This document shows positions 25,729 through 28,913 of a stretch of DNA of 64,000 nucleotides, in pieces. The DNA comes from Aidingimonas lacisalsi (lineage in GTDB: Bacteria > Pseudomonadota > Gammaproteobacteria > Pseudomonadales > Halomonadaceae). The first letter of the stretch is position 1; each line of letters starts with the position of its first letter. The position numbers and the translations under genes were made by a program. The notes under the pieces were generated by a model, which did not search any database, had not been told where the DNA came from, and worked only from the letters and a program-made list of their open reading frames with translations. Location of the stretch: positions 124,001 to 188,000 of the forward strand of contig NZ_VRYH01000006.1 in assembly GCF_008079445.1 (NCBI RefSeq). The letters run 5' to 3'.

Positions 25729-26106
25729 ATGAGCCACACGACGACAGCACCCGACGAGACCGGATCGGGGGCCGTAACGGCTTCGCCGCGCGGCATGATC
25801 ACCCGTTGGTGGTTGGCGGGACTGTTGGTGGGTTGTCTGTTACCGGCAACCCTGCTCCATGCCGAGCCGGGGCGGGCCGTTGAACGTGTCACTCAGATAT
25901 GCCTGTTGGCGCCCGACGTCATTCGCGCCCGGAGTCGACATATTGCCTACCGGTGGCGTTGGTATCCCCGGCTATCCCTGCCTGCGCTACCGCGCATCAA
26001 CGTGGTCTCATGGTGGCCGTTGCGACGTCTCCCGAGCGCTGCTCATGATCTCCTGTCTTGCCGGGGCCCACCAGCATGGCGCGTGAAAACCGTCCGATAC
26101 CCTTAA
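25729..26106 (+). CDS. Small secretory ORF upstream of secA, SecM-like arrest leader candidate
   Basis: A 125-residue ORF, not recognised with confidence. It has a hydrophilic N-tail, then ITRWW, a hydrophobic core (about 29-43) and a signal-peptidase-like LHA/EPG site after residue 45. The ITRW and post-cleavage AEP features recall E. coli SecM, which lies at the same place between lpxC and secA. The mature part is basic and W/R/P-rich. It contains CRGPPAW with R112-G-P-P115 and ends in RYP before TAA. RGPP resembles the RAGP and RAPP ends of known arrest peptides. An AGGAG lies 12 nt before the ATG. After the stop come inverted repeats around the secA ribosome site. I infer a translation-arrest sensor of secretion. 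No other function is suggested, and a non-coding leader cannot be excluded. Confidence 0.55.
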   Translation: MSHTTTAPDETGSGAVTASPRGMITRWWLAGLLVGCLLPATLLHAEPGRAVERVTQICLLAPDVIRARSRHIAYRWRWYPRLSLPALPRINVVSWWPLRRLPSAAHDLLSCRGPPAWRVKTVRYP

Positions 26107-26111
26107 TGAAC

Positions 26112-26159
26112 AGCGCAGCCGGGAACATACCATCCTCTGGAGAGAGGTGACGCTGCGCT
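26112..26159 (+). promoter_or_regulatory. Nested inverted repeats around the secA ribosome-binding site
   Basis: The outer stem AGCGCAGC (26112-26119) is perfectly complementary to GCTGCGCT (26152-26159). Inside it, CCTCT (26134-26138) pairs with AGAGG (26143-26147). The inner right arm is part of GAGGTGA (26144-26150), the only strong Shine-Dalgarno match before secA. The outer arm begins 6 nt after the preceding ORF's stop, so a ribosome held at that stop would cover it. This is the expected layout for arrest-controlled secA translation. Confidence 0.55.
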
Positions 26160-26180
26160 TTGGCAGAGACTGGACAATCC

Positions 26181-28913
26181 ATGCTCAATACGTTGTTACG
26201 CAAAGTCGTTGGTACGAAAAACGACCGTGAAGTGAAACGCCTGGGTAAGCTTGTCACCCAGATCAATGCGCTAGAGCCCCAGTTCGAGTCGCTGGATGAT
26301 GCATCGCTGACAGCGCAAACAGCCGCGTTTCGTGATCGTCTTGCCGGTGGGGAAGACCTGGAAAAGCTGCTGCCTGAGGCTTTTGCTACGGTACGGGAGG
26401 CCAGTAAGCGGGCCATGGGCATGCGCCACTTCGATGTACAGTTGATTGGTGGACTGGCACTTCACCGTGGTCGAATCGCTGAGATGAAGACCGGTGAAGG
26501 CAAGACTTTGGTCGCAACCTTGGCCGTTTATCTGAACGCGCTTTCCGGTCAGGGCGTGCATGTCGTCACGGTCAACGACTATCTGGCGAGTCGTGATGCC
26601 GAGTGGATGCGGCCTCTATATGAATTGCTGGGACTTTCCGTCGGTACCATCTATTCGGGACAATCATCGGTGCAGAAGCGAGCGGCCTATGCTTGCGATA
26701 TCACCTATGGCACCAACAATGAATTCGGCTTCGATTACCTGCGCGATAACATGGCCTTTTCGCTGGAAGACAAGGTCCAGCGGGAATTGCATTACGCCAT
26801 CGTCGATGAAGTGGATTCGATCCTTATCGATGAAGCACGGACACCTCTTATCATCTCCGGTCCCGTCGAAGAGAACACCGACCTGTACAAGGTGGTCGAT
26901 CGTCTGGCCACAGAGGTTGAACCCTGCAGTGACCCCGAAGACCCCACGTCTGGTGACTTCACGCTCGACGAAAAGCACAAGCAGGTGGAATTGACGGAGC
27001 AAGGCCATAACAAGGTCGAGTCGTTGATGCGTCAGCAGGAATTGCTCAGCGAAGAGGATTCGCTTTACGCGGCCAAGAACCTCAACTTGCTGCAACACAT
27101 GCACTCGGCGTTACGTGCCAGGCACCTGTATCAGCGTGATGTGGATTACATCATCAATGATGATCAGGTCGTCATCGTTGACGAACATACAGGGCGTACC
27201 ATGCCTGGCCGGCGTTGGTCGGAAGGTCTGCACCAGGCAGTGGAGGCCAAGGAAGGCGTCACCGTCCAGCGGGAAAGTCAAACGCTGGCATCCACGACGT
27301 TCCAGAACTATTTCCGGCTTTATGACAAGCTGGCCGGCATGACCGGTACGGCGGATACCGAGGCATTCGAGTTTCGGCAGATCTATGGACTCGATGTCAT
27401 GGTCATCCCCACTAACAAGCCGATGATCCGTGAAGATCTCAACGATCTCGTCTATCTCAGTGAAGAAGAAAAGTTCGAAGCCATCATTGCCGACGTGAAA
27501 GCTGCGACCGAGTCGGGGCGTCCGGTACTGGTAGGTACCGCCTCCATCGAGAGTTCCGAACGCTTGGCCGAGATGATGAAACGCGAGGGCATGAGCTTCA
27601 ATGTGCTCAATGCCAAGCAACACCAGCAGGAAGCGGAGGTCATTGCCCAAGCCGGTCGTCCTGGCGCCATTACCATTGCCACCAATATGGCGGGTCGTGG
27701 TACGGATATCGTTCTCGGCGGCAACTGGGAGGCTGAAGCTGCTAAACTCGATGACTCCAGTCAGGAGCAGCTCGACGCTATCAAGTCAGCATGGCAAGAG
27801 CGGCATGATACCGTACTCGAAGCAGGTGGCTTGTATGTCGTGGGGACGGAGCGTCATGAATCTCGACGCATCGACAACCAGTTGCGAGGCCGTGCAGGGC
27901 GCCAGGGTGACCCGGGTGCGACACGCTTCTTCCTCTCTCTGGAGGATAACCTCATGCGCCTGTTCGGTTCCGAGCGGGTCCAGAAACTGATGGGGGCTTT
28001 GGGGCTGGAGCATGGCGAAGCGATCGAGCACAAGATGGTGTCCAATGCCGTCGAACGCGCGCAGAAAAAAGTGGAGGGGCGTAACTTCGATATCCGTAAG
28101 CAACTGCTCGAGTACGACGACGTTGCCAACGATCAACGTCGGGTCATCTATGAGCAGCGCAACGAAATCCTCGCGGCTGACGATGTGTCCAGCAACGTTA
28201 TGGGCATTCGAGAGGAGGTGCTTGATGAAGCAATCAGCAGTTTCGTTCCTCCTCAGAGCTTGCCGGAGTTGTGGGATCTTCAAGGATTACAGGACCATCT
28301 GAAAGCCGAGTTCAATCTGGAGGTGCCCATCGTTCAGTGGGCCGAAGACGATGATCATTTCCACGAAGAGCAGTTGCGCGAACGCTTGCAGACGCAGCAT
28401 AGAGAAGCGTATTCCGCCAAGGTGGAAGCTGTCGGTGAAGAGTTGATGCGTCGGTTCGAAAAGCAAGTCATGCTTCAGGTCCTCGATACGCGCTGGAAAG
28501 AGCACTTGCAGTCCATGGATCATTTGCGTCGCGGTATCCATTTGCGGGGGTATGCACAGAAAAATCCCAAGCAGGAATACAAGCGGGAAGCGTTCGAACT
28601 TTTCCAGCAATTGTTGACCAATATCAAATCCGACGTCACTCGCATACTCAGTCATGTTCAGGTTCGCCGCCGTGAAGAGGTCGAGGAGCTCGAACGCCAG
28701 CGGCGAGAGACGCTCGAGCGTGAGAAAGCCACTGCCGCATCGCGACACGATGAACAACCGGAAGCGGAAGATGAGCAAGACGACAAGCGGATTCGCCCAC
28801 CCGGGGCCGATGGTCGGCCATTGCGTCGTGAAGGTCCCAAGGTGGGTCGTAATGATCCTTGTACCTGTGGCTCGGGCAAGAAATACAAGCAGTGTTGCGG
28901 CAAGCTGAACTGA
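26181..28913 (+). CDS. secA: Preprotein translocase ATPase SecA
   Basis: Motor of the Sec export pathway, driving preproteins through SecYEG. The 910-residue product begins MLNTLLRKVVGTKNDREVKRLGK like its homologues and has Walker A MKTGEGKT (102-109), a VDEVDSILIDEART Walker B, NMAGRGTDIVLGGNW, RQGDPGATRFFLSLED, and a C-terminal zinc motif CTCGSGKKYKQCC for SecB and lipid binding. The ATG at 26181 fits the family but lacks a good ribosome site. An in-frame TTG at 26160 has GAGGTGA upstream and would add seven residues (MAETGQS). argJ follows 12 nt after the stop. Confidence 0.97.
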   Translation: MLNTLLRKVVGTKNDREVKRLGKLVTQINALEPQFESLDDASLTAQTAAFRDRLAGGEDLEKLLPEAFATVREASKRAMGMRHFDVQLIGGLALHRGRIAEMKTGEGKTLVATLAVYLNALSGQGVHVVTVNDYLASRDAEWMRPLYELLGLSVGTIYSGQSSVQKRAAYACDITYGTNNEFGFDYLRDNMAFSLEDKVQRELHYAIVDEVDSILIDEARTPLIISGPVEENTDLYKVVDRLATEVEPCSDPEDPTSGDFTLDEKHKQVELTEQGHNKVESLMRQQELLSEEDSLYAAKNLNLLQHMHSALRARHLYQRDVDYIINDDQVVIVDEHTGRTMPGRRWSEGLHQAVEAKEGVTVQRESQTLASTTFQNYFRLYDKLAGMTGTADTEAFEFRQIYGLDVMVIPTNKPMIREDLNDLVYLSEEEKFEAIIADVKAATESGRPVLVGTASIESSERLAEMMKREGMSFNVLNAKQHQQEAEVIAQAGRPGAITIATNMAGRGTDIVLGGNWEAEAAKLDDSSQEQLDAIKSAWQERHDTVLEAGGLYVVGTERHESRRIDNQLRGRAGRQGDPGATRFFLSLEDNLMRLFGSERVQKLMGALGLEHGEAIEHKMVSNAVERAQKKVEGRNFDIRKQLLEYDDVANDQRRVIYEQRNEILAADDVSSNVMGIREEVLDEAISSFVPPQSLPELWDLQGLQDHLKAEFNLEVPIVQWAEDDDHFHEEQLRERLQTQHREAYSAKVEAVGEELMRRFEKQVMLQVLDTRWKEHLQSMDHLRRGIHLRGYAQKNPKQEYKREAFELFQQLLTNIKSDVTRILSHVQVRRREEVEELERQRRETLEREKATAASRHDEQPEAEDEQDDKRIRPPGADGRPLRREGPKVGRNDPCTCGSGKKYKQCCGKLN

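Follow-up and report, generated by a model that had tools for sequence, protein, structure and literature searches.

Translation-arrest leaders with RAPP-like motifs are among the closest described systems to the element studied here. Such peptides halt translation when the third residue of the motif occupies the P site (PMC10987492), and the same study (Fujiwara 2024) tested an RGPP arrest peptide encoded upstream of secA, 'uA_RQH_Pseudomonadales' (R109GPP), which gave >90% arrested product with both Escherichia coli and Bacillus subtilis ribosomes; its screen asked for >30 residues between the signal and the motif (PMC10987492). RGPP also arrested strongly when it was placed in SecM and ApcA (PMC12992588), and according to Sakiyama 2021, structure prediction showed no RNA masking the Shine–Dalgarno sequence (SD) for ApcA, ApdA, or ApdP. 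In this study, we analyzed a 125-codon open reading frame (ORF) that lies directly before secA in a 64,000-nucleotide (nt) stretch of DNA from Aidingimonas lacisalsi (hereafter the window, to which the coordinates of all features refer). We consider this ORF to be a SecM-like RGPP arrest leader acting as an export sensor before secA, with a probability of roughly 0.86. The conservation of the family, its position, the type of its motif, and the coevolution of its RNA with secA strongly support control of secA by an arrest leader of the SecM kind. The first-pass annotation of this DNA had also proposed a SecM-type arrest leader; the leader controlling secA stood, whereas a stall at the stop codon, a lock formed by an outer stem, and the novelty of the sequence did not.

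The ORF is a real gene directly before secA, on the same strand, between lpxC/dciA and secA. Its product is MSHTTTAPDETGSGAVTASPRGMITRWWLAGLLVGCLLPATLLHAEPGRAVERVTQICLLAPDVIRARSRHIAYRWRWYPRLSLPALPRINVVSWWPLRRLPSAAHDLLSCRGPPAWRVKTVRYP, with RGPP at residues 112 to 115 (26062–26073) and RYP followed by TAA at the end; the frame, its signal, the motif, the ending, and the slot were all where the first-pass annotation had placed them. The closest locus was that of Aidingimonas halophila (L052), with 67% identity over residues 1 to 116, and a locus of the same genus as the window (L002, genome G001) was identical to L052 across the 1000 bases surrounding the start of secA. Chance cannot account for the ORF: 107 other homologs were found in the protein database, a profile search detected the family in 236 of the 250 Halomonadaceae genomes sampled, covering 20 of 24 genera, and comparison with L002 gave an overall dN of 0.26 with saturated dS. 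The same comparison, which the first-pass annotation had suggested, gave dN 0.13 and dS 1.56 for the motif and dN 0.41 and dS 1.69 for the linker, indicating purifying selection at the codon level that is strongest on the signal and the motif. Homologs with genus names include Halomonas, Litchfieldella, Onishia, Franzmannia, Vreelandella, and Pistricoccus, all of which we take to be Halomonadaceae. The loci analyzed below were fetched by leader match, and prevalence was therefore measured only by the profile search and by a single-query search, in which the window protein matched 20 of 38 genomes; the 18 unmatched genomes comprised 13 from other families and 5 Halomonadaceae. The leader adjoined secA in all 130 loci in which secA was located, out of 131 (no secA was in reach in L021). 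These loci provided 110 distinct leader–secA regions, in which the leader stop lies 18 to 213 nt upstream of the secA ATG; L020 and L130 were dropped because the script misplaced their secA starts, leaving 108, and most RNA tests also dropped L017 and L018 (at least 190 nt from the motif R to the ATG), leaving 106.

Table 1. Features of the leader–secA region of the window, with predicted RNA elements
Feature	Coordinates	Strand	Remarks
Leader ORF	25729–26106	+	125 codons plus TAA (26104–26106); probable RGPP-type arrest leader of secA
Signal segment, residues 22–45	25792–25863	+	GMITRWWLAGLLVGCLLPATLLHA; near-invariant in the alignment; lipobox-like LVGC at 25825–25836
Conserved mid block, residues 46–75	25864–25953	+	From alignment and selection analysis
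Arrest motif (putative), residues 104–115	26038–26073	+	AAHDLLSCRGPP; D107, R112, P114, and P115 invariant; predicted P-site residue P114 at 26068–26070
5' arm of predicted helix	26044–26062	+	Codon H106 to first base of R112; pair probabilities 0.58–0.99, folded from 26044
3' arm of predicted helix	26162–26183	+	Contains SD GGAC and ATG 26181–26183; pairs with motif codons
Internal hairpin	26112–26159	+	Arms AGCGCAGC (26112–26119) and GCTGCGCT (26152–26159); similar arms, other loop in L002
secA	26181–28913	+	Conserved ATG start, MLNTLLRKVVGTKND
dciA	25199–25660	-	Divergent neighbor of the leader; Pfam DciA 2.5e-10
lpxC	24134–25066		Identified by sequence recognition

The alignment of 108 proteins was invariant at R26–L33, V34, C36–P39, A73, D107, R112, P114, and P115, and the most divergent loci (e.g. 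L009, L015, and L017–L020) deviated at some of the signal positions. An N-terminal export signal was recognized by its pattern, an RWWLAGLLV.CLLP segment after an Arg-rich N-region, and the segment conserved across the family is RWWLAGLLVGCLLP. The C-terminal motif has the consensus AAHDVLTRRGPP, for which the window has its own version (Table 1). RGPP was found in 107 of the 108 proteins, the remaining one having RAPP, and in 108 of the 110 distinct loci, the other two having RAPP. The spacer from CLLP to RGP is 74 to 81 residues, and the tail after RGPP is 2 to 27 residues long without any pattern; only eight of the 108 proteins, including that of the window, end in Pro. The conservation check suggested earlier for the last 20 codons shows a near-invariant RGPP followed by a variable tail. 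Given this variation downstream of RGPP, a stall is expected at RGPP and not at RYP-stop, and we strongly infer that the leader would stall with P114 in the P site. The RAPP members (L089, L018, and P0067; e.g. LDVRAPRAPP) amount to a naturally occurring exchange of one strong arrest core for another. Codon usage within the motif was also uneven: CCG accounted for 12% of the codons at P115 (26071–26073), the presumed A-site Pro, compared with 45% among secA starts and 49% elsewhere in the leaders, and CCC was rare at P114 (8% versus 45% and 31%, respectively), as counted over 106 loci without phylogenetic weighting. A tRNA-dependent effect of this bias on the arrest is possible.

The new part of this analysis is the RNA half, in which codons of the motif and tail are predicted to pair with the secA ribosome-binding site across the family. 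The predicted cost of opening the secA start in 106 loci was 6.75 kcal/mol with the motif region present, compared with 4.80 for synonymous versions, 4.80 for dinucleotide shuffles, and 4.49 for transplanted leader segments, and it was 4.22 kcal/mol when the RNA up to an RGPP-held ribosome was removed. Averaged over 36 sequence clusters, which are an incomplete phylogenetic correction with 40 of the 106 loci in one cluster, the corresponding values were 7.33 (real), 5.28 (synonymous), 5.22 (shuffled), 4.88 (transplanted), and 4.54 (stalled), and the real value exceeded the synonymous one in 26 clusters, the shuffled in 26, the transplanted in 27, and the stalled in 31. Lineages with a strong predicted effect include L006, L010, L075, and L083. 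When the RNA was removed stepwise from its 5' end (108 loci, fewer at the far end), the mean cost stayed at 6.6 to 7.7 kcal/mol until the ribosome edge reached R-12, numbered from the motif R, dropped to 4.2 kcal/mol by R+12, and was 3.7 to 4.5 thereafter. In 106 loci, the start region paired most often with stretches within the arrest codons, R-18..-7 and R+2..+8.

The predicted pairing was specific to lineage, since a locus with its own motif cost 7.42 kcal/mol versus 5.75 with the motifs of other lineages (0 of 20,000 permutations), corresponding to z 5.0 for the motif versus 0.1, 1.9, and -0.8 for control segments. A longest-helix test gave z 2.3 to 4.3 for four motif/tail windows against the whole start region and z 3.8 for the motif against the SD/ATG alone, with leader controls at -0.7 to 0.7. 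No fixed helix register covaried across the family (maximum z 2.88; 95% of the null at 3.19), and the pairing would therefore drift in register; scored in any register, the longest helix reached 19.54 versus 16.85, the top of 100 permutations being 18.03. Plain duplex energies were weak (own -18.76, cross -17.84, 5 of 5000 permutations; p<0.05 against the synonymous null in 24 of 106 loci), and for this reason the partition-function test was used. One locus, L083 (Halomonas cupida), has Leu (CTT) in place of the motif His, together with the secA start GGACTCAAGATG instead of the common GGACCCTTCATG; this could be a compensatory change, because CTTGA is still able to pair with TCAAG.

The window itself was predicted to follow this scheme when folded from 26044, the codons CATGATCTCCTGTCTTGCC pairing with GGCAGAGACTGGACAATCCATG (26162–26183) and covering both the SD and the start codon. 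The duplex had an energy of -25.8 kcal/mol, compared with a synonymous mean of -19.8, and 2.7% of the synonymous versions were as low. Blocking only the footprint R-9..R+21 lowered the cost of opening from 8.2 to 5.4 kcal/mol. The model suggests that an RGPP-held ribosome should break the pairing of 26044–26062 with 26162–26183 and not the outer stem proposed earlier. An alternative long-context fold pairing 26030–26042 with 26110–26124 was rejected, as it was absent from L002 by eye.

Several observations weigh against this reading. The evidence for the stall comes from published assays on other RGPP peptides, and the residue before RGPP in the window, as in L002, is Cys and not Arg. For the RNA, the missing common register, the incompleteness of the cluster correction, and the 10 of 36 clusters in which the real cost was not above the synonymous one all count on this side, as do one control segment whose own-versus-cross score (z 1.9) was reached by 199 of 5000 permutations, a z of 2.1 for the motif against secA +10..+40, which had been intended as a control, and a z of only 1.5 against the stretch upstream of the SD. 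In the window, the 5' arm was outscored on its own secA region by nine of the 105 others (rank 10 of 106, duplex test), and the effect in the main test was small (8.2 kcal/mol with the motif present versus 7.1 stalled, with a synonymous mean of 7.0). With longer upstream context (R-66 or beyond), the unstalled cost of 5.4 to 6.6 kcal/mol was lower than the stalled 7.1, and the motif:secA helix was gone from the ensemble. Masking of the SD by stall-disrupted RNA was thus predicted for the family on average and was weak and context-dependent in the window, for which the RNA-lock model is plausible but not demonstrated.

The mechanism that we propose is as follows. The nascent leader chain would hold its ribosome at Pro114 (in the P site), and Sec-dependent pulling by the export machinery would release it. 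The ribosome at RGPP would cover codons whose pairing would otherwise hide the SD and start codon of secA, thereby inducing secA. Poor export would prolong the stalls, keep the secA start open, and raise SecA; under good export, quick release and refolding would lower it. A more ambitious version, to which we would give even odds, holds that the motif is written twice: the peptide HDVLTRRGPP halts the ribosome, and the same codons act as RNA, an anti-SD locking secA; across lineages, this lock has drifted in register without loss of either function, and at the root of the core Halomonadaceae the unit took the place of an M23 peptidase gene in a single event.

RNA complementarity might act by itself, translation of the leader coupling secA through unwinding of the motif:SD helix whether or not the ribosome stalls. 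A terminating ribosome was indeed predicted to open the start region as well as an RGPP-held one (4.13 versus 4.53 kcal/mol), and when only R-9..R+21 under the ribosome was blocked, leaving the RNA behind it free, the cost was still 4.60 kcal/mol (all three are means of clusters represented by at most six loci each). However, complementarity alone would explain neither an R-G-P-P that is near-invariant at the amino acid level with varied codons nor the signal segment, and we regard this explanation as unlikely. We think it less probable still that the ORF encodes a small exported protein of the ordinary kind, possibly a lipoprotein with an LVGC lipobox, whose function resides in the mature product and for which control of secA is incidental. 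The lipobox pattern present in 108 of 108 proteins (LVGC in 105, LVSC in 3) and the conserved mid block would fit such a protein, but an RGPP that hardly varies near the C-terminus, followed by an unconstrained tail, is an arrest signature, the gene precedes secA at every one of the 130 loci, and the RNA coevolves with the secA start of its own lineage. The arrest leader itself may be a lipoprotein-type export substrate, as judged from its sequence, and in the arrested state the mid block is expected to have just emerged from the exit tunnel. An A-x-A site follows soon after CLLP in 25 of the 108 proteins. The linker (25858–26037 in the window) is strongly basic, with a mean net charge of +11.6 (window, +8) and a nearly constant length of 59 to 67, which may make the leader hard to export and hence a sensitive sensor.

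The start of secA was assigned to ATG 26181, preceded by an SD, GGAC, at 26172–26175. This ATG was conserved in 108 of the 110 loci, the other two being the script misplacements, and a GGA core lies 4 to 16 nt before it in 106 of 108 loci. In-frame upstream start codons were present in 72 of 110 loci and are uninformative; TTG 26160 was rejected as the secA start because in L002 it does not share the frame of the ATG, which lies 20 and not 21 nt away. The first-pass annotation had described an outer stem, an inner CCTCT (26134–26138)/AGAGG (26143–26147) stem, and an enclosed GAGGTGA (26144–26150), all of which are present where it had located them, within the motif:secA helix of the window fold. 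Its view of GAGGTGA as the only strong ribosome site of secA did not hold, and the sequence was rejected as a conserved SD: GAGGT occurred between leader and secA in just 13 of 110 loci. Nor did the outer stem qualify as the lock of secA, since its loop was not kept relative to L002/A. halophila and the conserved SD lies downstream of the stem; the folds it had suggested checking were predicted to be no more stable than shuffles (z -0.57, -0.37, and -0.33). It had correctly placed a ribosome at RGPP short of the left outer arm, the edge being at approximately 26083 for a usual footprint and the arm beginning at 26112. The remaining explanation, in which the ribosome is held at Pro125 and the stop codon (RYP-stop) and opens the AGCGCAGC/GCTGCGCT hairpin, is very improbable, because although stop-codon arrest leaders are known (uA_NSP-stop and uDF_NAP-stop; PMC10987492) and the left arm would be within reach of a ribosome held there, the family shows no conserved ending (that of A. 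halophila L052 is ...VSIS) and neither the hairpin loop nor GAGGTGA is conserved.

All 14 leader-less Halomonadaceae genomes have an M23 peptidase gene near secA, as do 54 of 74 loci from other families of the order Pseudomonadales, compared with 0 of the 131 leader-matched loci (piece read; L021 of these without secA). The tBLASTn search for M23 used one query, taken by script from L135. The remark in the first-pass annotation that an M23 gene occupies this spot in pseudomonads was thus borne out. Leader-bearing genomes nearly formed one group in a short SecA tree, which was built on 100 residues and poorly resolved, with a long-branch row of another family falling in the leader group. The leader label required two changes on this tree and one change in 16% of bootstrap trees. 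One replacement of M23 by the leader is the simplest reading, although the SecA tree does not show a single origin. The genome carrying this locus also encodes, elsewhere than in the window, another SecA-like protein (G000:C7:34906-35232), a 734-residue open frame with 45% identity to the SecA N-terminus, and a second, shorter SecA-like frame was found in eight other genomes of 126.

Searches of the ORF against Pfam and NCBIfam (E<=1) and of 25600–26300 against Rfam (up to E=1) gave no match. A sigma-70-like promoter was not found in 25060–26250, and the same scan gave a single terminator-like site within the leader, a frequency equal to the chance rate.

These results indicate that the slot of secM in a large halophile family is filled by a leader of unrelated sequence. 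The 110 distinct regions form a natural series in which a peptide code and a predicted RNA lock overlap and coevolve. RNA masking of the target of an RGPP leader becomes directly testable. Comparing own with cross lineages also offers a means of detecting RNA locks that lack a conserved fixed helix.

In GTDB, the Halomonadaceae belong to the Pseudomonadales. The leader shares with uA_RQH_Pseudomonadales this GTDB order, RGPP near the C-terminus, a small ORF upstream (uORF) of secA, and an N-terminal signal; the sequence features sought for RQH are present in the Halomonadaceae leader, including a RAPP-like motif and the 74- to 81-residue spacer. The R of the tested peptide is at residue 109, as it is in 4 of the 107 RGPP proteins of the Halomonadaceae leader, and the main text of PMC10987492 names no halomonad; its RNA analysis deals with the Alteromonas secDF2 leader and not with uA_RQH_Pseudomonadales. 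RGPP ORFs upstream of secA, for which the first-pass annotation had suggested a search, are widespread in Halomonadaceae, and no convincing RGPP-type uORF was found before secA in 65 genomes from 38 other families of the order with a placed secA start (9 of 74 loci had no secA start in the piece read). Six loose motif matches were set aside by eye, namely, L133, L167, L175, and L180, where M23 is present, and L214 and L221, where it is not. On this basis, uA_RQH_Pseudomonadales is very probably the Halomonadaceae leader family, short of proven identity, and the mature sequence, called unfamiliar in the first-pass annotation, belongs to a type of secA leader published for Pseudomonadales in 2024. 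Among the matches listed in full-text searches of the open literature, none dealt with the halomonad leader or with its RNA.

E. coli SecM likewise occupies the lpxC–secA slot and has an export signal, a C-terminal R-x-x-P arrest motif, and a secA SD masked by RNA that extends back to the arrest site. The scan of secA opening cost, applied to E. coli secM–secA, gave a similar drop, from ~5–7 to ~2.6–3.5 at RAGP. In the predicted E. coli fold, the SD partner lies at R+10..+14, with a further part near R-44..-39, whereas the predicted partner in the halomonad leader lies at ~R-18..-7 and R+2..+8 on average. SecM carries RAGP within FxxxxWIxxxxGIRAGP, whereas the leader carries RGPP without the FxxxxWIxxxxGI element (window end, SAAHDLLSCRGPPAWRVKTVRYP), and no sequence kinship between them was detected (hhalign probability 0.1). 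ApdA/ApdP (RAPP) and ApcA (RAPG) are described as having the same core motif type and stalling at the third residue; ApdP precedes secDF and ApcA precedes yidC, whereas the halomonad leader precedes secA. The target of ApdA is secDF. CutF of Rhodobacter capsulatus, as described, is likewise a leader that is exported and Pro-rich at its C-terminus, with a stem-loop that hides the SD of the next gene, but it senses copper, whereas the halomonad leader is a proposed sensor of export capacity. NAP-stop and NSP-stop leaders have a conserved terminal Pro and arrest at the stop, in contrast to the unrelated, rarely Pro-final tails found here. Taken together, these comparisons suggest an RGPP arrest leader of secA that is SecM-like in action, shows no kinship to SecM, and very probably belongs to the group tested in 2024.

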